From assembly GCA_018266955.1 (NCBI GenBank), contig JAFDZI010000022.1, positions 124,001 through 188,000 on the forward strand: DNA of 64,000 nt, given 5' to 3'. The position numbers and the translations under genes are program-made. The notes beneath the pieces were generated by a model, which made no database searches, was not told where the DNA came from, and worked only from the letters and a program-made list of their open reading frames with translations. The DNA is from Bacteroidota bacterium. Lineage in GTDB: Bacteria > Bacteroidota > Bacteroidia > Flavobacteriales > Weeksellaceae. Below are positions 19,018-37,607 of this stretch, piece after piece (position 1 is the first letter of the stretch; the number at the start of each line of letters is the position of its first letter).

Positions 19018-19125
19018 GCTTTGGAGCGGGGCAACCCCCTATGTTCTAGCCCTGATTGCAGTGGAAATCCTTGGGTGAGGAACGAGCCCAAGATTGTAAC
19101 GAAAAGCAGGCACGACCTACGAAAC
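19018..19125 (+). ncRNA. Conserved structured intergenic element, possibly flavo-1-like
   Basis: Between rnhB and yidC there is an element with short paired segments. The clearest stem is CTTGGG (19070-19075) with CCCAAG (19087-19092), closing a TGAGGAACGAG loop. CCTG near 19051 can pair with CAGG near 19107. The sequence style (GCCCTGATTGCAGTGG ... GATTGTAACGAAAAGCAGG) resembles an intergenic motif recurring in flavobacterial genomes. I recall this as the flavo-1 RNA type but cannot check it here. Strand is assigned by analogy. Confidence 0.45.
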
Positions 19126-22772: not shown

Positions 22773-25700
22773 TTAGTTGATATCTTCAAACTCTTTGCTA
22801 GAGCCTACTATTACATTTTGGTAAGTTTTAAGCCCGGTACCTGCAGGAATTCTGTGTCCTACAATTACATTTTCTTTCAAACCGTTCAATTCGTCCACTT
22901 TACCTGCCACCGCAGCCTCGTTGAGTACTTTGGTTGTTTCTTGGAAGGAAGCTGCCGACATGAAGGATTTGGTTTGTAATGCTGCTCTTGTAATCCCTTG
23001 CAATACTGGAGATGCAGTTGCAGGAAGCACTTCTCTTACTTGTACCAATTGTAAGTCTTCTCTTTTCAATTTAGAGTTTTCGTCTCTCAATTCTCTTGCG
23101 GTAATCATTTGTCCTGGTTGGAATTCAGAAGAATCACCAGCATCTACCACTACTTTCATTCCGAAGATACGGTTGTTTTCTTCCAAGAAATCCAGTTTAT
23201 GTTCTAAGGCACCTTCTAAGAATTGAGTATCGCCACCATCCACAATCATTACTTTAGTCATCATTTGTCTCACGATGATTTCGAAATGTTTGTCGTCAAT
23301 TTTCACCCCTTGCAAACGATATACTTCTTGAATTTCGTTCACTAAGTACTCTTGTACTGCGGTAGATCCTTTGATTCTTAGGATGTCGTCTGGTGTGATG
23401 GAACCATCGGATAGAGATGTTCCTGCTCTAACGAAGTCATTCTCTTGAACCAAAATTTGGTTGGAAAGTTTCACTAAATAAGTTTTTCTTTCCCCTGTTT
23501 TGGCCTCTACAATTAATTCTCGGTTACCTCTCTTAATTTTACCATAAGAAACTACACCATCTATCTCTGTTACAACAGCAGGGTTAGAAGGGTTTCTTGC
23601 TTCGAAAAGTTCGGTAACTCTCGGAAGACCTCCGGTGATATCCCCTGCTTTTGCAGATTTTCTTGGGATTTTAATTAAGATTTTACCTGCCTTAATTTTC
23701 TCACCATCATTTACCATAAGGTGAGCGCCAACTGGTAGGTTATAGCCCTTTTGTTCCACTCCTTTGGAGTCCACTACTTTTAGGGTAGGAACGGCTTTTT
23801 TATTTCTTGATTCTGAGATTACTTTTTCTTCGAAACCAGTTTGTTCGTCGATTTCCAATTGGAAAGAAACCCCTTGGATAATGTCTTCGTACTCTACTTT
23901 ACCCGAAGTTTCTGCAATAATAACCGCGTTATAAGGATCCCACTTACAGATGACATCACCTTTTTTCACTTTATCCCCTGGTTTAACAGAGATTTCTGAT
24001 CCATAAGGAATGTTTGCCACCATTAGCGGAGTTCTGGCTTCGTTATCGGTTACCAAACGGAATTCTGTTGAACGAGATACAACAACATCTCTAAGATTTC
24101 CAAACTCATCTTCTGAAGCAATGGTTCTTAATTCGTCCATTTCTACGATACCATCTCTTCTAGCAACGATGGAAGGATTTACAGAGACATTCCCTGCAGT
24201 ACCCCCTTGGTGGAAGGTTCTAAGGGTAAGCTGTGTTCCAGGTTCACCAATAGATTGTGCAGCGATTACACCTACAGCCTCTCCCATGTGAATTGGTTTA
24301 CCCGTTGCCAAGTTTCTACCATAACATTTGGCACAAATACCTTTTTTGGCTTCACAAGTAAGAGGAGATCTAACTTCTACCGTTTCGATTCCTGTATTTT
24401 CTATTGTTTTTGCTAATTCTTCATTGATAATGGTATCAGCATGAACAATTATTTCATCGGATTCTGGATCGTAGATATCGTGTAATGAAACTCTACCTAA
24501 GATTCTTTCAGAAAGTTTTTCAACGATTTCATCATTTTTCTTCAATGGAGAAATTTCAGTTCCTCTAAGCGTTCCACAGTCGTCTTCGGTAATGATAACA
24601 TCTTGTGCCACATCCACCAAACGACGGGTAAGATAACCCGCATCGGCTGTTTTAAGAGCGGTATCTGCAAGACCTTTTCTCGCCCCGTGGGTAGAGATAA
24701 AGTACTCCAAGATGGAAAGTCCTTCTTTAAAGTTCGCAACGATTGGGTTTTCGATAATTTCAGCACCTACGGCTCCAGCTTTTTGTGGTTTGGCCATCAA
24801 ACCTCTCATTCCGGAGAGCTGACGGATCTGTTCTTTAGACCCCCTTGCACCAGAATCGAGCATCATGAACACAGAGTTAAACCCACCTTGGTCGGTCTTC
24901 ATTCTGCTCATAATCATTTCGGTAAGTCCGGCATTGGTATTGGTCCAAACATCAATTACCTGGTTGTATCTTTCGGTGTCTGTAATAAGACCCATGTTAT
25001 AGTTTCCAGTAATTTCGTTAACATTTTCCACGGCTTTTGCAATCATTCCTCTTTTTTCTTCAGGAACAACGATATCTCCTAGGGAGAAAGAAAGACCACC
25101 TTTGAAGGCGTTGGAATATCCTAGATCTTTCATTTCGTCTAGGAACTTTACTGTTGTTGGGAAGTCGGTTTCTGCCAAAATTCTACCAATAACATTACGA
25201 AGTGATTTTTTAGTTAAAAGCTCATCGATATAGCCTACTTGTTTTGGTACAATTTGATTAAATAAAATTCTACCAACGGTTGTAGGGATAAGTTTAGTAA
25301 CGAGTTCACCTTCTTCATTTTTAACTGGAAGTTTACATCTTACTTTTGCATTTAGAGATACTTGTCCTTCAGCATAAGCGATTTCTACTTCTTCTGGAGA
25401 ATAGAATGCCAATCCTTCACCTTTTACCTTCATGGTATCGGTAGAATCCAATTGTTTGGTCATAAAATACAGACCCAATACCATGTCTTGAGAAGGTACG
25501 GTAATTGGAGATCCGTTGGCTGGGTTCAAGATATTTTGAGATCCCAACATCAACAATTGAGCTTCTAAGATTGCTTCTGGCCCTAGCGGTAAATGTACCG
25601 CCATTTGGTCACCATCAAAATCGGCGTTGAAGGCCGTAGTTACCAATGGGTGCAATTGGATTGCTTTTCCTTCGATCATTTTCGGTTGGAAAGCCTGTAT

Positions 25701-27041
25701 CCCAAGTCTGTGCAAAGTAGGTGCCCTGTTCAATAGTACAGGATGTCCTTTCATCACATTTTCTAGGATATCATATACTACAGGTTCCTTTCTGTCGATG
25801 ATTCTTTTGGCTGATTTTACGGTCTTTACAATTCCTCTTTCGATGAGTTTACGAATGATGAATGGTTTGTAAAGTTCAGCAGCCATATCTTTAGGAAGAC
25901 CACACTCGTGCAATTGTAGGCTTGGTCCAACGACAATTACGGAACGAGCAGAATAGTCCACCCTTTTCCCTAATAAGTTCTGACGGAAACGACCTTGCTT
26001 ACCTTTCAATGAATCTGAAAGTGACTTCAATGGTCTATTCGATTCGGATTTTACAGCAGAAGATTTTCTGGTATTATCGAATAATGAATCTACCGATTCC
26101 TGAAGCATTCGTTTCTCGTTTCTTAGGATTACCTCAGGAGCTTTAATTTCCAATAATCTCTTCAAACGGTTGTTTCTGATGATTACTCTACGGTAAAGGT
26201 CGTTAAGGTCGGAGGTAGCAAAACGCCCTCCATCCAATGGTACCAAAGGTCTTAGTTCTGGTGGGATAACCGGAAGCACACGCATAACCATCCATTCTGG
26301 ACGATTGACCATTCGGGTATTGGCACCTCTAAGTGCTTCAACCACATTGAGTCTTTTTAATGCTTCTGTTCTTCTTTGTTTTGATCCTTCGTTGTGTGCT
26401 TTGTGTCTTAATTCAAAAGACAATGCGTCCAAATCGATTCTTTTCAAAAGTTCTTCAATAGCTTCAGCACCCATTTTGGCGATGAATTTATTAGGATCGC
26501 TATCGTCCAAATATTGGTTCTCGATTGGAAGGGTATCCATGATGTCCAAATATTCTTCCTCGGTAAGGAATTCCATTGGGTCGAAATCTGAACCGTCGGC
26601 TTTTTTAGCTATACCTTGTTGTACCACTACATATCTTTCGTAGTAGATGATCATGTCCAATTTCTTGGAAGGCAAACCTAAAAGGTAACCAATTTTGTTC
26701 GGTAAAGAACGGAAATACCAGATATGAGCCACAGGAACTACCAAGTTGATGTGTCCTACTCTTTCTCTACGCACTTTTTTCTCGGTTACTTCCACCCCAC
26801 AACGGTCGCAGACAATCCCTTTGTAACGGATTCTTTTGTATTTTCCGCAGGCACATTCGTAGTCTTTGATAGGGCCAAAGATTTTTTCGCAAAACAAACC
26901 ATCTCTTTCTGGTTTGTGGGTTCTATAGTTAATCGTTTCCGGCTTTAGAATTTCCCCTCTTGATTCTTGAAGAATAGACTCGGGAGATGCTAAACCGATG
27001 GTGATTTTACTAAATCTGCTTGATTTATTTTTATTTGACAT
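22773..27041 (-). CDS. rpoC: RNA polymerase subunit beta'
   Basis: The 1422-aa product is the largest RNA polymerase subunit. It carries the N-terminal zinc site ([20 protein letters not shown], near residues 64-83), the catalytic Mg loop [15 protein letters not shown] near 470-480, the trigger loop region, and the second zinc site with CAKCYGRN. The length is typical of Bacteroidota. It starts 85 bp after rpoB on the same strand. That gap carries a short tandem repeat but no terminator, so rpoB and rpoC should be co-transcribed. Confidence 0.98.
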
Positions 27042-30100: not shown

Positions 30101-30957
30101 TTTTCCAGAACAGTTTCTCTATCCAAGATAATTTCATTTCTTTCAACAGACACCAATTCTCCGGTATCTTCATCCACGAAATCCTCGAACCAAGTATTTA
30201 ATACCCTAGCTGCTAAGGTTCTTCCTTCTACTTTTTTCAGAGCCGCTTTAGAAACTTTTACTTCTTCTGCTAAATCAAAAATTTGAAGAATATCCTTATC
30301 CGATTCGTACCCTATTGCTCTTAACAAAGTAGTAAGAGGCAATTTCTTTTTACGGTCAATATAGGCATACATTACCGAGTTAATATCGGTTGTAAATTCC
30401 ATCCAAGATCCTTTGAAAGGAATAATTCTGGAATAATACAATTTAGTACCATTCGCGTGATAGGTCTGTCCAAAGAACACCCCTGGAGAACGGTGCAATT
30501 GAGTAACTACTACCCTTTCTGCCCCATTGATGATAAATGATCCCGATGGCGTCATATAAGGTACCGGACCTAAATAAACATCTTGAATTACAGTTTGAAA
30601 TTCTTCGTGTTCTGGATCTGTACAGTACAATTTCAGCCTCGCCTTTAATGGAACTGAATAAGTTAATCCTCTCTCCACACATTCGTTGATTGAATAACGA
30701 GGAGAATCTACCAAATAATCTAAAAATTCTAATACGAATTGGTTTCTAGAATCGGTAATTGGGAAGTTTTCTTCGAAAGTTTTGTACAATGCTTCGTGTT
30801 TTCTAGCATCTGGAAGGGTGTCTAACTGGAAGAACTCTTTAAATGATTCAATCTGAACATCTAAGAAATCTGGCGTTATTACCTTACCTTTTACAGCTGA
30901 GAAATTCACACGCTCATGTCGTCTTTCGTTTTGTTGAGTTTTTGATGTTTTACTCAT
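27127..30957 (-). CDS. rpoB: RNA polymerase subunit beta
   Basis: The 1276-aa product is the beta subunit. The rifampicin-binding region ([34 protein letters not shown], about residues 485-520) shows no resistance-type substitution that I can recognise. The C-terminal clamp part [22 protein letters not shown] and [21 protein letters not shown] is intact. It is not adjacent to rplL as in most bacteria: a secreted-protein cluster lies upstream, and rpoB has its own promoter and long leader. Confidence 0.98.
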
Positions 30958-31273
30958 AAAAAATAGAACGAAGGGTTAAAAAACATTTTGATTTCACTAA
31001 AAAATATCAGAAAAAGAAATTTGGATCTAAAAAAAAAGGCATTGACATTGGCGCTATCAAAATTAGCCTTAAATTTTCTATATAATCCAGATTCTTTATC
31101 TAAATTGCAACACCGGTATATCTTTTCACGGCGTAGTACAAAATATTCTTTTCAATTTTTTCTTTCGGCGGTAAACTGACGTAAATCCCTAAAACACGAA
31201 ACCCCTTCCGAATCAATCGAAAGAGCTGATTTACAATATTTTAGTGATTTATGTACAATGGTTAGCGCCAAAA
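30958..31273 (-). promoter_or_regulatory. Long 5' leader of rpoBC
   Basis: If transcription starts about 7 nt after the promoter at 31280-31310, rpoB has a leader of about 315 nt. An 8-nt word at its 5' end (minus-strand TGGCGCTA, 31263-31270) is exactly complementary to one near the middle-to-end (TAGCGCCA, 31049-31056), which could pair at long range. A second -7-like box, TAATTTTG (31058-31065), lies beside the latter. No open frame of note is present. Confidence 0.45.
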
Positions 31274-31279
31274 GGAGTG

Positions 31280-31310
31280 CAAATTTACGAAAACCAATTC
31301 GATTTCACAA
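31280..31310 (-). promoter_or_regulatory. rpoBC promoter
   Basis: On the minus strand TTG (31308-31310), a 20-nt spacer and TAAATTTG (31280-31287) match the Bacteroidota consensus exactly. It sits just downstream of the terminator of the secreted-protein cluster. Confidence 0.65.
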
Positions 31311-31312
31311 GT

Positions 31313-31337
31313 AAAAAACCATCTCCGAAGAGATGGT
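31313..31337 (-). terminator. Terminator of the secreted-protein cluster
   Basis: On the minus strand CCATCTC-TTCG-GAGATGG (UUCG tetraloop) is followed by six T residues. It insulates rpoBC from the upstream genes. Confidence 0.9.
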
Positions 31338-31378
31338 CTGTTATAAAGTTTTGTTAAAAATAAATTTAACTAAGTCGC

Positions 31379-31930
31379 TTACGGCTTCCAGAAGCCCCAA
31401 GTTGACCCGTTGAATACAGCCAATCTCTCAGAACCTTCCTTTCTTACAAATACTATCATACCCGGGCTTGGGCTGGGAATATTGTTCACATCGTCCACCT
31501 GAGGCAGTACCATCGCTTTTGTTGTAGATTCTAGAACCAAAACGCCATCTGTAACAGAACTTGTACTCGCACCGATGATGGTTTTTGCTTCAGTAGGTTC
31601 CGTTACTGTAGTAGGCTGTGTATTGAGGATGGTGCTAATATCGGCACCCTGCCCGCTGAGGTCCACCCAGCTTCCGTTGTAATATTTCACTCGTGCATCT
31701 GCCGGATTAGAAGCATCCAATATGATGGAACCTTCGGTTGGAGCAGTAGATTTAGTTCTTACATAAGGCAGGATAATGCCTTTGTTGTTGGTATTGGCAA
31801 ATTCCAGAAGGACAGAGGTTTTTTGTGCTGCCGGAGCGGTACCCACGGCATCACCGATAATGACCTGTGCAGAAGCGCCTCCGGAAAGGACTGCAGCTGC
31901 GATAAGGGTTAATTTAGCTAATGATTTCAT
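31379..31930 (-). CDS. Small secreted protein with surface-type C-terminal module
   Basis: The 183-aa product has a clear signal peptide (LTLIAAAVLSGGASA). The mature part reads like the terminal module of large flavobacterial surface proteins: a KGIILPYVRT stretch, an Ala/Pro-rich linker, then a repeated-looking KAMVLPQVDDVNNIPSPSPGMIVFV ending in a GSTWGFWKP tail. A related module ends the 1287-aa protein encoded 71 bp upstream. No enzyme motif is seen. It may be a partner or a spare end-module of the large protein. Confidence 0.7.
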   Translation of the reverse strand: MKSLAKLTLIAAAVLSGGASAQVIIGDAVGTAPAAQKTSVLLEFANTNNKGIILPYVRTKSTAPTEGSIILDASNPADARVKYYNGSWVDLSGQGADISTILNTQPTTVTEPTEAKTIIGASTSSVTDGVLVLESTTKAMVLPQVDDVNNIPSPSPGMIVFVRKEGSERLAVFNGSTWGFWKP

Positions 31931-32001
31931 TACTTTTTTTATTTTAAATGAATTTAAAAACAGAGGCCGTTATCGTACGACCACGACCTCTGGATTAATG
32001 A

Positions 32002-35000
32002 TTATGGACAAGCCGGTGTGCTGAAGCACTTCCAGCCAGTGTTCGCCGGTGTGGTATTGTCCACCACGTAGATTTTCAGACATTTCGCCGTAGTGTCATA
32101 CACCATCATCCCTTCTACAGGATTGGTAATAGCAGACAGACCGGAAGTCGGCACTCTGGTGATCACAAATCCTTTGGTGTTGGATTCCAGTGCGGTGTGC
32201 GCCGAGCTGCGGTTCATTGGCCAGTTGCCGTTATCAACACCTGCTCTTTGTAGTAAGGTGATACCGTGTTTGGTATCTACTCCTGCAGTTCCAGTGTTTG
32301 GCAGTTCATAGCAAACTGCAAGATCCAAACTCGTAAGTTCTAGTGTAGCTTGATCACATGCTTGTGGTACGCCATTATCACAAATTGTGTAAGGGATTAC
32401 TACGGTTCCTACATAAGTTGCTACTGGTACAAAACTGTAAGTTCCATTAGCATTTAAGGTAACACTTCCTACTCCTGGAATTACTGTTGCTGTTCCGATT
32501 GTTAATGCTGTTCCGTTTGCTACGCCATTTACAGAGAATACTGTTGCAGCCGTAACTGTGGTTGTATTTCCTTCTGGGTCGGTATCATTCGTTTTCACAT
32601 TTCCTGTCATCGTTACGCCTTTCGGTGCTGTATTGGCATCATCATTCGCAAACGTATTATTGGTGGTAGAACCTGCGCCAACTACGGTGATGTAGATGTT
32701 TGCGGTTGCTGTTCCACCATTTCCATCACTGATTACGTAAGGTAAAGGATTTACTGTTCCTACGAATCCTGCTGCAGGTACGTACGTGTAAGTTCCATTG
32801 GCATTCAACTGTACTGTTCCGGCATTAGCAACTGGTGTTCCTGCTGCATTTACTCCAGAAACTACGGTTGCTGTTCCTATTGTAAGTCCTGTAGCAGAAG
32901 TTACCGTTAATGCATCTCCATCTGGATCTGAATCATTATTAAGAACGGTTGAACTTACCGAAACTCCTTCTTCTGTGAAAGAGGTATCGTGCTGTGCTAT
33001 TGGATTGTCATTTCCTACTACGGTATTTGGTATAACCTTAATGGTTAATGTAGTAGAATCTGTAGATCCCAAATTATTGGTTAAAGTATAATTTACTGGA
33101 ATTTCTCCTACAAAACCAGTTGTTGGTGTGTAAGTGTAGGTTCCATCCGCATTCAACAACATGGTTCCTGCTGGTACTCCTGCTGGAGTAAAGACTGGTG
33201 TTGCGGTACCGATTGGTAAATTAGTTAGTACACCACTTGCATTGTAAAACTGTGCAGAAGTTACGGTAGCGGTACCGGTAAACTCGTCATTCGTAATTAC
33301 ATTACCACTTACTGGAACATTGATAGGGGTTTGGTTGATGTCTAATACTGCATCAATACAAGTTTCTGTATAGGTATAGGTTACAGTTGTTGTAAAATAT
33401 ACTTGTGTAAATATGTTTGAAATTCCGTATCCTCCTATACTCATAATCGTTGGAATGTTATGAGAATAGGTGAATGGTACATTTCCTGAAGCTCCTGTAA
33501 AACTGGCTAAATCAGTAGCACTAGTATAATTTACAGAACCATTATAATTATATGTGTTATAAAATGGTGAAAAATAGAAATCATCATCAAAGGTACTGTT
33601 ACCTGTAATATTAGTAACCCATCTAGGATCGGTTCTTGGATCAATACCTGCATAAACAGAGTTAGAAGTCCATGGCATTGCATTAAGAGTACTCGATGAT
33701 ACATCACCTGTCCAAGCTCCTTGAGCAGGAACAGTTATTCCAACACCTGTTCCTAAAATATCATAAGTATTCCCACCATCATAACTTGGTGATTGCCATA
33801 ACAAATAATCTGTTGGAGTACTTACATTAACACCATTGTATTTAAAAAGTGGACGGAATTTTATTATTCCACTAAATTCATTTCCACCATTACCCGTTCC
33901 CTCAATAATTACAAAATTTCTAGCATTACTCGTGTAATTAATAGCCACACCCGTTAAAACTTTTCCTCCTGTTTGATTAAATTTTGGGATAAAAATTTGA
34001 TTATTTACACCACTTAAAAGTATAGGAGATTGATAAGTATAAGTTACTGTTTTATTAGTACCTCCTGAACAAGCTACCAAAGTACAAGATCCAGGGTTTA
34101 CAAGTACTATAGAATTTGGAGCATAACTACCCCAGTTTGGTGTTACGGTTACAGTAACATCTCCATTATTAGACGAACCATTGGCTAATCTGAATGATTC
34201 TGCTAAACTATTATATCCAACATTAGTAGCTGGGCTACCATCTGATAAAGTTACCGTTACGGGATTTCCATTCTGAGTAGCTGTTACTGAATAAGTATAG
34301 GGAGCTTCATAAAACAATACTGGTGCTGGAGCCAACATACTAAATGTAATGTAATCATCTGAACCATCTTCTAAAGTTCCGTTAGGATTACAAGTGATAT
34401 TACTTAACGCAACTACATTTGAAGTTACCATAACTGATACTACTGCATCATCACAATTAGTTGGGTTAGCAACTTCACAAATTTGGTATGTAAACGTATA
34501 ATTTCCTGCTGGAGTTCCTGGATTAACAGAAACTGCACCTGTTGTTACATCTAAAACTATTCCTGTTGGAATTGTACCTGTTGTTAAAATAACATCTGCT
34601 GGATTAACGCCAGTTGTTGTTCCTAAAACGTCATTAGCGAAAATATTAATTCCTGTGCTTCCGCCTATTGTTCCGTTTATAGGTGCTCCAGAGTCGTTGT
34701 CTGCAATGATTGGGCTGATACAATCATAAGTATATTCTACTTTTACAAAATACCGGGCCTTTGTAGCTTGACTAAATAAAAATTGACCGCCACTACCAGA
34801 AGCAGTAATAGAACCATAGGCATCTACAGCTATAGGAAATGTGGAAGCTCCTTTATATGCATTTAAATCTAATGGAGCTGTCAGGTTAATTGAGGGTGCG
34901 TTAAAAGCAAAAGTAGGGTTAACTGCAACAGTTATATCATCATCATCACCAGCGTTTCCTGTTAATTGTGTTACCCAAAGCGGATTTGTAGTCGGGTCTA

Positions 35001-35865
35001 TACCGGAAGCAAGTGCACTTTGTAACCAAGTATTCGCATAATTTCCCATAGCTGTTAAAGTAGAAGGAGTAAAATTAGGTGCAACTCCAGGATCATCACC
35101 CGGCCATGCCCCACTTGCTGGCACCAAAACAGCACCAGCGACTGGAATAGATGTGGGATATCCTGGTGTTTGTACAATTATTTTACTAGCAATAGGATGA
35201 GCAACCGTATTTATGTCAAATTGATAAGGTTCAACTTCAGTTTTTATTCTGACAGTCTGAGGGTTTGCCGCTCGATTCTCACCGCTAACGCTACCTGATG
35301 CAGTAAAACCATAATCAATTTTCACACCCGTTAATGTTCTAGAAGTTCCTTCGTCAAATTTTGGTAAAGTTGCATTTTGCGACGTGAACAGGTCTAGAGG
35401 TAAAACATTTTCATAATAGTACGTTACTTTATTCCCAGTTGACGCTCCAGTACACACAGTAGAGCAAGTACCAGGATTGGTAAGGTTTACAACCTCTTGG
35501 GTCATTGCGCCAAATTGTGCTGTTAGGGTAATTACGATATTACCTGCGGCTGCAATAGTTCCATTATTAATTCTATAATAAGGGTTCTCTCCATAGTCGC
35601 CTTGCGTTACCGCTACCCCTGCCATATCTGTGATGGTTACTGGATTACCCAAGTACGTAGCGGAAATATTATACTTAAATGGATGGACTACAATACCACC
35701 TGGCGGTTGCGGATTCAATTTAAAAGCAACAAAATCATCTGCTGCTGTATTAAATGTTCCATTATTGGAGCATTGTACATCCGAAATAACGGATTGAGCA
35801 GAAATGAAATTTGTAAGTAGAAATAAGGACATCAATACAGTCCTCAAAATAAAACTTTTTTTCAT
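32002..35865 (-). CDS. Large secreted protein with Ig/cadherin-like repeats
   Basis: The 1287-aa product has a signal peptide (VLMSLFLLTNFISAQ). Two related modules of about 110 residues follow (starting SVISDVQCSNNGTFNTAADDF and again LSNITCNPNGTLEDGSDDY near residue 490), each with a beta-rich extension. From about residue 860 on there are four or more cadherin-like/VCBS-type repeats with NDxxTDPDGDxLTVT and NADGTYTYTPxxGFVG motifs. It ends in GMMVYDTTAKCLKIY ... WKCFSTPACP and shows no classical T9SS tail. An adhesin or cell-surface role is inferred. Confidence 0.8.
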   Translation of the reverse strand: MKKSFILRTVLMSLFLLTNFISAQSVISDVQCSNNGTFNTAADDFVAFKLNPQPPGGIVVHPFKYNISATYLGNPVTITDMAGVAVTQGDYGENPYYRINNGTIAAAGNIVITLTAQFGAMTQEVVNLTNPGTCSTVCTGASTGNKVTYYYENVLPLDLFTSQNATLPKFDEGTSRTLTGVKIDYGFTASGSVSGENRAANPQTVRIKTEVEPYQFDINTVAHPIASKIIVQTPGYPTSIPVAGAVLVPASGAWPGDDPGVAPNFTPSTLTAMGNYANTWLQSALASGIDPTTNPLWVTQLTGNAGDDDDITVAVNPTFAFNAPSINLTAPLDLNAYKGASTFPIAVDAYGSITASGSGGQFLFSQATKARYFVKVEYTYDCISPIIADNDSGAPINGTIGGSTGINIFANDVLGTTTGVNPADVILTTGTIPTGIVLDVTTGAVSVNPGTPAGNYTFTYQICEVANPTNCDDAVVSVMVTSNVVALSNITCNPNGTLEDGSDDYITFSMLAPAPVLFYEAPYTYSVTATQNGNPVTVTLSDGSPATNVGYNSLAESFRLANGSSNNGDVTVTVTPNWGSYAPNSIVLVNPGSCTLVACSGGTNKTVTYTYQSPILLSGVNNQIFIPKFNQTGGKVLTGVAINYTSNARNFVIIEGTGNGGNEFSGIIKFRPLFKYNGVNVSTPTDYLLWQSPSYDGGNTYDILGTGVGITVPAQGAWTGDVSSSTLNAMPWTSNSVYAGIDPRTDPRWVTNITGNSTFDDDFYFSPFYNTYNYNGSVNYTSATDLASFTGASGNVPFTYSHNIPTIMSIGGYGISNIFTQVYFTTTVTYTYTETCIDAVLDINQTPINVPVSGNVITNDEFTGTATVTSAQFYNASGVLTNLPIGTATPVFTPAGVPAGTMLLNADGTYTYTPTTGFVGEIPVNYTLTNNLGSTDSTTLTIKVIPNTVVGNDNPIAQHDTSFTEEGVSVSSTVLNNDSDPDGDALTVTSATGLTIGTATVVSGVNAAGTPVANAGTVQLNANGTYTYVPAAGFVGTVNPLPYVISDGNGGTATANIYITVVGAGSTTNNTFANDDANTAPKGVTMTGNVKTNDTDPEGNTTTVTAATVFSVNGVANGTALTIGTATVIPGVGSVTLNANGTYSFVPVATYVGTVVIPYTICDNGVPQACDQATLELTSLDLAVCYELPNTGTAGVDTKHGITLLQRAGVDNGNWPMNRSSAHTALESNTKGFVITRVPTSGLSAITNPVEGMMVYDTTAKCLKIYVVDNTTPANTGWKCFSTPACP

Positions 35866-36048
35866 AATATGTTATTTTCTATTTGTTTAATGTTGTTTTG
35901 CGAAATTTTTAAAGTAAAAAAAACTTTCGCATTATTTTTTATTTAGAAATAACCAAAATCTTTAAGGAAATTATCTAAAAAATTGATTTCCTAAAAGATA
36001 GTTATTTTCACAAGCATATTTTAATTTTTTTTAAAATAGGATTGATTC

Positions 36049-36651
36049 TTATGCAACGGGAGGTGCACGGAGAGAAGAAATTCTGCAATGTTGGGATGCA
36101 GAAAATAAAAGGTAGGTATAAGAATTTTCCTTTCTTTGGAAAACTTGAATTTTAAAATTGTCAAAAACTTCTTCCGGAATTGCAGAGAATTTTTGCACTT
36201 TAAAATTTGTAGGTATTACACCGTGAGCATAAAAACCCGAACTTTGGCTAAATGTATTTCCGCTCGAAGGAAAATTAATAAACAAAAAAGAACTTTGTTT
36301 TTCTATTTTTTTAGCAACTGGTTTCGTAGTTTTCTGTGTTTCTACTTTTTTACTTTTTATAGAAAGTGCTTTTTCTTTGGAAGTTGTAGGGTTTAAATTT
36401 GAATTTTCGGTAGCATTGCCATTATAAATAATTTTTGCGGCATAAATTTCATCTGCTCCCACCATCACTGCTCCAGATGTCATATATATGATCGCCGAAT
36501 TTTCGGGTAATTGTGAAGGGTTTTGTGTAATGGGTTCAGAAAATTCTATCGCAAAAGAAAAAACAGGCAATACAACCAAAATCCATAACAATATCTTAAA
36601 CATTATTGTGGATTTAGTAGATATGCTTGTAAAAAGTAAATTTGTTTTCAT
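36049..36651 (-). CDS. Secreted or anchored protein, unknown
   Basis: The 200-aa product has a hydrophobic N-terminal segment (ILLWILVVLPVFSFA). After it comes a basic, Lys/Thr-rich stretch (about 95-130) and no recognised domain. I keep the start at 36651 because a -7 box (36675-36682) lies 24 bp upstream, giving a short leader. An internal ATG at 36603 would also keep the signal. It is the first gene of the cluster inserted between rplL and rpoB. Confidence 0.6.
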   Translation of the reverse strand: MKTNLLFTSISTKSTIMFKILLWILVVLPVFSFAIEFSEPITQNPSQLPENSAIIYMTSGAVMVGADEIYAAKIIYNGNATENSNLNPTTSKEKALSIKSKKVETQKTTKPVAKKIEKQSSFLFINFPSSGNTFSQSSGFYAHGVIPTNFKVQKFSAIPEEVFDNFKIQVFQRKENSYTYLLFSASQHCRISSLRAPPVA

Positions 36652-36674
36652 CTATTTGTGCGTAGATTAGTGAG

Positions 36675-36682
36675 CAAATATA
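36675..36682 (-). promoter_or_regulatory. -7 element of the secreted-protein cluster
   Basis: TATATTTG on the minus strand matches the consensus and lies 24 bp before the first gene. Confidence 0.5.
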
Positions 36683-36838
36683 CGTGATTAATTTTAAAAT
36701 TAAGAAAAATTATGTAATAAAAGCTAAAATTGTTGAAAATGCGTGATTAAAGCAAGGTTTTTATAACGCAAAGAATTCTACAAATAATTTAAAAATAAAA
36801 AGCAAAGATTATGGACTTGGTCATTAAAGCCAGTTTAT

Positions 36839-37169
36839 TTGCGAGTCGCCACTTTGTCTTTGCGATGAACAGTATGTCCCAATTCATCAGGAAAGCAATC
36901 CCATCTAGCATCCTTGTTTTCCACTCACAAAAGCAAACATCCAAACTGCGAAAAACTTGCTGGATGAGATTGCCACACCCGACAACCAAATTTTCGCTTG
37001 AAGCACTTTTTGCAATCTGCCGGGTTCGCAATGACAGGATGCCGTAATTGCGAGTCTGCGTTTTTTCTGTTGGTGCGAGCATCTTGTTCGTATCCGATTT
37101 GTCTTATTGCCATTATTTCAAAAATTTTCGCAAAATTCCTGATGTGGATACGAGCGTGACGCTTGCACC
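36839..37169. repeat. Degenerate intergenic repeat region with imperfect palindromes
   Basis: This gene-free stretch upstream of the secreted-protein cluster contains words typical of dispersed Bacteroidota intergenic repeats (GCGAGTCGCCACTTTG, TTCGCAATGACAGGATG, TGGATGAGATTGCC). It ends in an imperfect inverted repeat of 24-bp arms, GGTGCGAGCATC.. (37072-37095) and ..GACGCTTGCACC (37146-37169), with about five mismatches. I interpret it as REP-like elements in decay. Short open frames across it on both strands are not credible genes. Confidence 0.6.
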
Positions 37170-37187
37170 AGCTTGAGGGTTTTAACC

Positions 37188-37216
37188 AAAAAAAATCCCT
37201 TCTTTCGAAAGGATTT
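37188..37216 (-). terminator. rplKAJL operon terminator
   Basis: On the minus strand AAATCCTTTC-GAAA-GAAGGGATTT with a T run lies 23 bp after rplL. Confidence 0.88.
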
Positions 37217-37238: not shown

Positions 37239-37607
37239 TTATTTCAATTCTACTTCTGCACCTGCTTCTTCTAATTGTTTTTTCAAAGCTTCAGCTTCGT
37301 CTTTAGAAATACCTTCTTTAATAGCAGTTGGAGCACCATCTACCATATCTTTAGCTTCTTTAAGACCAGCACCTGTTAAATCTTTAACTAATTTAACAAT
37401 AGCTAATTTAGAAGCACCAGCTGATTTAAGAATTACATCGAATTCTGTTTTTTCTTCAGCAGCTTCACCAGCACCACCAGCAGCAACTACAACAGCAGCA
37501 GCAGCAGGCTCTATTCCGTACTCATCCTTAAGGATAGCAGCTAATTCATTTACATCTTTTACCGTAAGGTTCACAAGCGTTTCCGCTAAATTTTTTAAAT
37601 CTGACAT
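37239..37607 (-). CDS. rplL: Ribosomal protein bL12 (L7/L12)
   Basis: The 122-aa stalk protein recruits translation factors. It has the helical N-terminal dimer domain ([20 protein letters not shown]), an Ala/Gly hinge with [15 protein letters not shown], and the C-terminal domain [21 protein letters not shown] start it at ATG 37607; a longer frame reaches 37673 but adds a lysine-rich stretch foreign to the family. It is the last gene of rplKAJL and is followed by a terminator, not by rpoB. Confidence 0.96.

Follow-up and report, generated by a model that had tools for sequence, protein, structure and literature searches.

In the window analyzed here, a 64,000-nucleotide (nt) stretch of a Bacteroidota genome of the family Weeksellaceae (contig JAFDZI010000022.1, positions 124,001 to 188,000), the RNA polymerase genes rpoB and rpoC are most likely transcribed from a promoter of their own, as an mRNA that carries a conserved, structured, cis-acting leader of ca. 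320 nt. The sequence comparisons described below tie this leader to rpoB, show it to be widespread in Weeksellaceae, and give it a defined set of predicted helices (P1, P2, P3, and P4). Its role is probably to control the amount of RNA polymerase, and the reading that we favor, and hold to be rather more than an even bet, is that of an own-promoter rpoBC mRNA whose conserved structured leader sets rpoBC output. To our knowledge, little is established about how the level of core RNA polymerase is set in bacteria beyond the well-studied models. The leader provides a defined RNA whose base pairs can be tested, in the family to which Chryseobacterium, Elizabethkingia, and Riemerella belong.

Read along the minus strand, the window contains rplL (the final gene of rplKAJL), a terminator-like hairpin, open reading frames (ORFs) of 200, 1,287, and 183 amino acids (aa), a second terminator-like hairpin with a UUCG loop, the promoter, the leader, and rpoB (Table 1). 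An earlier prediction, made by a model from the sequence of the window, had announced both a UUCG-loop terminator and, directly after it, a consensus promoter ahead of rpoB, and both a terminator-like hairpin and the promoter (TTG, 20 nt, TAAATTTG) are indeed there. We predict the transcript start at position 31275 because the −7 box of Flavobacterium psychrophilum is placed at −12 to −5 in an excerpt of PMC9723704; this gives a leader of 318 nt (ca. 315 nt as originally proposed). The same excerpt gives a mean of 65 and a median of 24 for 5′ untranslated regions and mentions 64 structured 5′ regions. For the comparison across relatives, 149 loci were reduced to 103 unique leaders by removing 32 duplicates and 14 loci without a promoter match. 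A TTG stood 17 to 23 nt upstream of the TAnnTTTGC box in 94 of these 103 leaders, which had been selected for the box, versus 24.9 expected from shuffling. The minimum free energy (MFE) of the window's leader corresponded to a z score of −4.81, and none of 100 shuffled sequences was equally stable.

Table 1. Elements of the predicted rpoBC leader and neighboring features (positions in the window)
Feature	Position	Strand	Basis
Predicted rpoBC leader RNA, ca. 318 nt	30958-31275	-	Promoter position, fold stability, family conservation
rpoBC promoter: TTG (31310-31308), 20-nt spacer, TAAATTTG (31287-31280)	31280-31310	-	Sequence
5′ arm of long-range helix P1, TTGGCGCTA, near predicted mRNA 5′ end	31263-31271	-	Swap test; RNAalifold pairs it with 3′ arm
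3′ arm of P1, TAGCGCCAA, in loop of rod P4	31048-31056	-	Swap test; RNAalifold
CGCCGAAAG, base of hairpin domain P2, with which the 5′ end can pair locally instead	31162-31170	-	MFE; arm-swap folds
Core hairpin P3, nearly invariant 13-nt loop UGAAAAGAUAUAC (31128-31116)	31106-31140	-	Covariation, loop letters, core model R1
Rod P4, long hairpin with 3′ arm in loop	31008-31102	-	Fold of window's own locus (L001); strand-swap test
Segment A, 5′ strand of proposed closing helix of three-way junction	31140-31151	-	
Segment B, AUAUUUUUU, right after P4	30999-31007	-	Alignment A2, sequence
Segment C, AAAAUGUUUUUU, 20 nt from the ATG; other (3′) strand of proposed closing helix	30978-30989	-	
Terminator-like hairpin, UUCG loop, just 5′ of promoter	31316-31339	-	Hairpin scan
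rpoB, 1,276 aa	27127-30957	-	ORF list; tblastn to relatives
rpoC, downstream of rpoB	22773-27041	-	
183-aa secreted-type protein, small partner of cargo pair	31379-31930	-	No Pfam/NCBIfam match at E ≤ 0.01
1,287-aa adhesin-like secreted-type protein, Big_9 and Cadherin_5 repeats	32002-35865	-	Pfam/NCBIfam; Ig- and cadherin-like
200-aa ORF, hydrophobic N terminus, no family	36049-36651	-	Pfam match below cutoff only; NCBIfam none
Terminator-like hairpin 3′ of rplL	37193-37216	-	Hairpin scan
rplL (L7/L12), final gene of rplKAJL	37239-37607	-	ORF list; start MSDLKN picked by eye

A blastn search with the leader gave matches in 114 of 148 genomes and 28 of 33 genera of the family, although the core was not always covered. 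A covariance model of the core (57 positions, built from 48 of the blastn-matched sequences) recovered at an E value of ≤0.001 111 of the 148 genomes and 25 of the 33 genera, with a single copy per genome except for two copies each in G067 and G137. As for the other genera, the core of g33 (locus L102) is interrupted by a contig end (by eye), no rpoB was found in g12, and in six more (11 genomes) rpoB lies 40 to 163 nt after rplL with no core seen. In 296 genomes of the order, the model matched 48 genomes of the same family, and 10 genomes outside it matched only at E values of 0.0077 to 0.094. The presence of the element outside the family was rejected for the order, given that the six of these 10 matches for which rpoB was retrieved map elsewhere in the genome; no core was found in the 330 nt preceding rpoB in those six genomes. 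Across 296 genomes of the phylum, seven of eight matches fell within the family, the other having an E value of 0.0016. Named genomes were also scanned with a pattern of the core that fixes the P3 loop letters; this gave at least 118 stretches, from which 80 loci were taken. Among the matches listed are, by their record titles, from which the family name is drawn, Chryseobacterium, Kaistella, Epilithonimonas, Elizabethkingia, Bergeyella, Riemerella, Halpernia, Soonwooa, Moheibacter, and Frigoriflavimonas, and the remaining ones are metagenome-assembled genomes labeled Weeksellaceae, Flavobacteriaceae, Flavobacteriales, or Flavobacteriia. In 77 of the 80 listed records, rpoB starts 116 to 254 nt after the start of the core, and the other three stretches hold no rpoB. 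The leader thus combines a fixed place before one gene with two-sided changes in its base pairs, as a cis-regulatory leader does.

The core hairpin P3 was paired in 99.0% of 414 cells over 48 sequences (46 distinct), and sliding the partner strand by 1 to 3 columns left only 14 to 54% paired. Two-sided changes were found in 14 cells, compared with 3.6 in shuffles. The inner stem of 79 distinct cores reads CCG/CGG in 40, CUG/CAG in 30, UCG/CGA in 3, and CGG/CCG in 1, with a G-U pair or a mismatch in the other 5. The loop consists of UGAAAAGAUAUA plus a last base that is C in 34, U in 3, and A in 1 of 38 distinct cores fetched by blastn; this set alone was used for counting loop letters, because the pattern-fetched sets fix them. 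Such near invariance only suggests that the loop is a sensing or binding site. A different hairpin can form over the same region, namely, AUAUUUUGCAY with GUGAAAAGAUAU (31116 to 31150 of the window, minus strand), and the P3 state was lower in energy in 86 of 101 leaders. The Y position of this alternative hairpin, likewise counted where the letter is not fixed, is C in 26 and T in 12 of the 38 distinct cores, a pattern that P3 alone leaves unexplained. Pairing of the P3 loop with the AUAUUUUUU tracts showed no covariation. A short reading frame across the core (GTG AAA AGA TAT ...) was rejected by eye, without a formal coding test, because AAA AGA TAT was never replaced synonymously in 61 loci while changes in the stem alter the residue.

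Long-range complementarity within the leader had been predicted over 8 nt. It exists but extends over 9 nt, TTGGCGCTA with TAGCGCCAA, and a covariation analysis of the leader, proposed at the time as a check, came out positive for both this helix (P1) and P3. The 3′ arm lies ca. 200 nt downstream of the 5′ arm across the leaders, and the two arms change jointly (GGCGC/GCGCC, GGTGC/GCACC, GGGCT/AGCCC, GAAGTTATCC/GGATAACTTC, GAAGC/GCTTC, GGCAC/GTGCC, and GGCGT/ACGCC), with 73 of the 103 leaders in class GGCGC. Within the genus of the window, locus L055 has GGCACAATTA/TGATTGTGCC in place of TTGGCGCTA/TAGCGCCAA. When arms were swapped among leaders, a leader's own arms scored 22.9, compared with 14.5 when the partner came from another arm class, and the own score exceeded the 95th percentile of swapped partners in 86 of 103 leaders. 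RNAalifold, applied to 32 hand-chosen leaders (outliers such as L032 to L035 and L041 to L046 were excluded), found P1 unprompted; 3 of its 27 pairs had two-sided changes, all of them in P1. An inverted repeat near a promoter would fit equally well the layout of a DNA operator, in which the two arms are inverted sites for a repressor rather than strands of an RNA helix. However, the arms change together across seven classes (GGCGC, GGTGC, GGGCT, GAAGT, GAAGC, GGCAC, and GGCGT), which one DNA-binding protein would hardly tolerate, and two-sided changes are found in P3 too, so that we give an operator very little credence.

The 5′ arm also closes the first hairpin domain, P2, with a segment just upstream of the core. 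When the P2 domain was folded, at least 5 nt of the 5′ arm paired at its base in all 103 leaders. Giving P2 the arm of another class cost 3.9 kcal/mol on average, and for 99 of 103 leaders the native fold was lower in energy than the arm-swapped folds were on average. The 5′ arm has, in this way, two sequence-supported partners, the 3′ arm in the P4 loop and the P2-base segment, and we call the leader switch-like because P1 and the P2 base are mutually exclusive. We would only tentatively go as far as a new class of RNA switch, in which the 13-nt loop acts as the sensor, for RNA polymerase or for a growth signal, and the 5′ end toggles between two exclusive partners, thereby controlling the synthesis of core polymerase.

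The rod P4 encloses the 3′ arm with at least four pairs in 100 of 102 leaders (a raw count with no shuffled baseline; leaders that lacked a promoter match, 10 in all, and four whose sequence is short there were left out). Its own strands folded at −20.3 kcal/mol, versus −15.0 kcal/mol with foreign strands, and were below the 10th percentile of the latter in 56 of 97 cases. The z scores of the P4 fold were modest (median of −1.5, with 33 of 102 under −2). That the sequence of P4 changes fast and yet keeps its pairing, and that the 5′ arm is paired in either fold, would also be expected if the leader were a static stabilizer or insulator, with both pairings keeping the 5′ end of a vital mRNA double stranded and P4 or the closing helix shielding it or being processed, with no sensing and no switching. 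A stabilizer would not need a 13-nt loop that varies at its last base alone, nor two competing partners that both track the arm, and we consider it unlikely.

Segments A and C could form a closing helix ahead of the start codon (A:C), which is supported more weakly. It has 11 to 12 possible pairs, almost all A-U, and its inner substitutions are almost all A to G, retaining G-U pairs. Over 101 leaders, the mean pairing probability was 0.83 for A:C and 0.05 for the competing hairpin of segments B and C (B:C). The latter bears on transcription attenuation, that is, on P4 followed by AUAUUUUUU, or B:C followed by U5, pausing or ending transcription until alternative pairings relieve it. U tracts do lie directly 3′ of P4 and B:C in alignment A2, B:C was the hairpin chosen by RNAalifold, and an attenuator-like hairpin follows rplL in leaderless relatives (by eye). 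Nevertheless, by eye, the stems beside the U tracts look weak and rich in A-U pairs, and the probability of B:C is low compared with that of A:C, which leaves attenuation, in our judgment, improbable.

Under the reading favored here, a leader that sets rpoBC output, this control would act after initiation and would take the place of the control exerted on rpoBC when these genes formed the distal part of the rplKAJL unit. The P3 loop might be recognized, the simplest candidates being RNA polymerase and its beta/beta′ subunits; the mRNA would shift its 5′ end between two partners, the P4 loop and the P2 base; and the closing helix could alter translation or elongation near the start codon. According to an excerpt of PMC6847099, Bacteroidota do without Shine-Dalgarno pairing and structure tunes initiation, so a helix just before the start codon is a plausible actuator.

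Several points weigh against this reading. The choice of sensor is a guess, and so is the direction of control. P1 shows no advantage of the own partner in six arm classes (GAGAA, GAGAG, GAGTG, GCTGC, GGGGC, and TTAAG; 8 leaders), and L032 and L060 have no P1; it is therefore not essential for the element. At the P2 base, the ungapped helix test was weak (16 of 103). Five of the nine P3 pairs are invariant, the number of P3 pairs with two-sided changes (two) was matched in 35 of 500 shuffles, and RNAalifold takes the alternative core hairpin plus the B:C hairpin over P3 and A:C. As for A:C, leaders L034, L043, L044, L045, and L055 are exceptions, a single inner mismatch is present in L052 and in L135, and no two-sided changes were counted by a tool. 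A:C would, moreover, cross P1, which is why RNAalifold cannot display the two together. Lastly, the sequences are related, with 73 of 103 leaders in one arm class, so that the counts do not represent independent events; some loci were collected with the pattern that fixes the P3 loop.

The distance from rpoB to rplL in the window is ca. 6.28 kb, both genes being on the minus strand, and the originally described split of the two by about 6 kb with three secreted-protein genes was borne out by three ORFs with hydrophobic N termini (by eye). The further claim that rpoBC is thereby uncoupled from the ribosomal stalk genes stood in part. We surveyed 147 loci with >600 nt before rpoB (duplicates included); rplL was in range in 73 of them, with gaps of 310 to 14,008 nt (47 up to 706 nt and 26 above 900 nt). 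There were 36 unique compact junctions (310 to 706 nt), 33 of which had the promoter box (367 to 706 nt), and in 30 of these 33 a terminator-like hairpin follows rplL and the same leader is present (a raw count with no shuffled baseline). In L055, which belongs to the genus of the window, the hairpin, promoter, and leader are all found within a 384-nt gap. The promoter, upstream hairpin, and leader thus recur family-wide, and these compact junctions led us to reject the insertion as the cause: the presumed uncoupling tracks the promoter together with the leader, whether or not the insertion, an optional cargo, is present.

It is conceivable that rpoBC is still mostly transcribed from the rplKAJL side and that the leader is incidental; in favor of this are L042, L058, and L046, compact junctions that have the core and neither the promoter box nor a terminator-like hairpin. 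Against such read-through stand the two terminator-like hairpins and ca. 6.3 kb that intervene in the window, as well as the hairpin in most compact promoter-bearing junctions, and we regard it as highly improbable. Terminator-like sites numbered 11 in the 6.8 kb scanned, versus 4.9 in shuffles.

In many leaderless Flavobacteriales (L103 to L128), an attenuator-like hairpin, GGTTTAGRCC ... GGYCTAARCC followed by a T-rich stretch, recurs after rplL (by eye) and could represent a separate conserved element. It occupies the same gap before rpoB in other Flavobacteriales, whereas no core was seen in the 11 leaderless genomes of the family mentioned above. The presence patterns, taken without a tree, suggest an order of events in which a joint operon with an attenuator acquired first the core; then its own promoter, terminator, and 5′ arm; and finally the insertion. 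Weeksellaceae and their relatives would accordingly provide a readable series of rpoBC leaving the stalk operon: leaderless, core without promoter, promoter plus leader, and cargo inserted.

No Rfam 15 family reached its gathering score over the leader of the window or in the loci of six relatives, and at an E value of ≤10 only chance-level matches were found in positions 30900 to 31400. Literature searches by title and start of abstract returned no paper describing this leader, and the main text of PMC8040213 contains none of six related words; its undescribed status rests on these searches and Rfam 15. We consider it, from its sequence, an RNA family without an Rfam 15 name; it would add a new family to a known kind, and its 5′ end is unusual in having two partners. 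The nearest known kind is Lacto-rpoB (RF01709), likewise an RNA associated with rpoB, a trait that the leader shares in 77 of the 80 listed records (the three others being the stretches without rpoB). It is nonetheless a different family, as its model had no match in the window, none at an E value of ≤10 in positions 30900 to 31400, and none in the loci of six relatives; the comparison was made through the Rfam model, the name, and a table entry. That entry, in a table of PMC2864571, lists Lacto-rpoB as RNA “Y,” cis-regulatory “y,” and switch “n” and for Lactobacillales only, and an excerpt of PMC6064168 relates it to the neighboring gene. The S15-Flavobacteria leader (RF03161) is also a leader RNA of an expression-machinery gene and is named for Flavobacteria, but its match to positions 31229 to 31287 was at chance level (18.1 bits, the gathering score being 46.5; E value of 9.4).

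A comparable location is the rplL-rpoB intercistronic region of Escherichia coli, reportedly the subject, by its title, of a 1980 paper by Barry. It lies at the same place and has attenuation, processing, and autogenous control of rpoBC, and there, too, rpoBC is set apart from the stalk genes; according to an excerpt of PMC10931766, the autogenous control of rpoBC is separate from that of rplJL. In contrast, rpoBC here appears to have a promoter of its own, and rplL is followed by a terminator-like hairpin, both of which speak against cotranscription via an attenuator. For the RNase III processing that takes place before rpoB in E. coli, the long rod P4 would be a candidate here.

The cargo upstream of rpoB is a two-gene module, found in many relatives, that combines a large, adhesin-like protein of secreted type with a smaller partner of ca. 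185 aa. Each member of the pair occurs in five places in the genome of the window, and all five are adjacent pairs, including the one at 31379 to 35865; the four other relatives of the 1,287-aa protein in this genome are partial. Of the 147 loci, 38 have a relative of the 183-aa protein upstream of rpoB, a count that takes in the genome of the window three times along with other duplicates; two copies of this type occur in L032, L037, L052, L067, and L159, among others. The “decayed repeats” attributed to the junction did not hold up, the longest direct repeats being coding repeats within the 1,287-aa gene. A second copy of positions 36740 to 37160 was sought in the genome at an E value of ≤0.001, and none was found.

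Second matches to the leader or its core were seen in two loci. In L038 (G067:C1:1237524-1237588), a weak second core match of 32.5 bits, perhaps a decayed copy, lies ca. 740 nt upstream of the good one. L040 has a second leader copy ca. 6.2 kb into the locus and ca. 8 kb upstream of the intact leader, followed by a short rpoB-like stretch (residues 16 to 87, 79% identity, L005) and a reversed secreted-gene pair, an arrangement that is possibly the scar of a recombination into the 5′ end of rpoB. Elsewhere in the window, on the plus strand, Flavo-1 RNA (RF01705), listed in Rfam as a small RNA, was matched at 19044 to 19117 with 61.1 bits.

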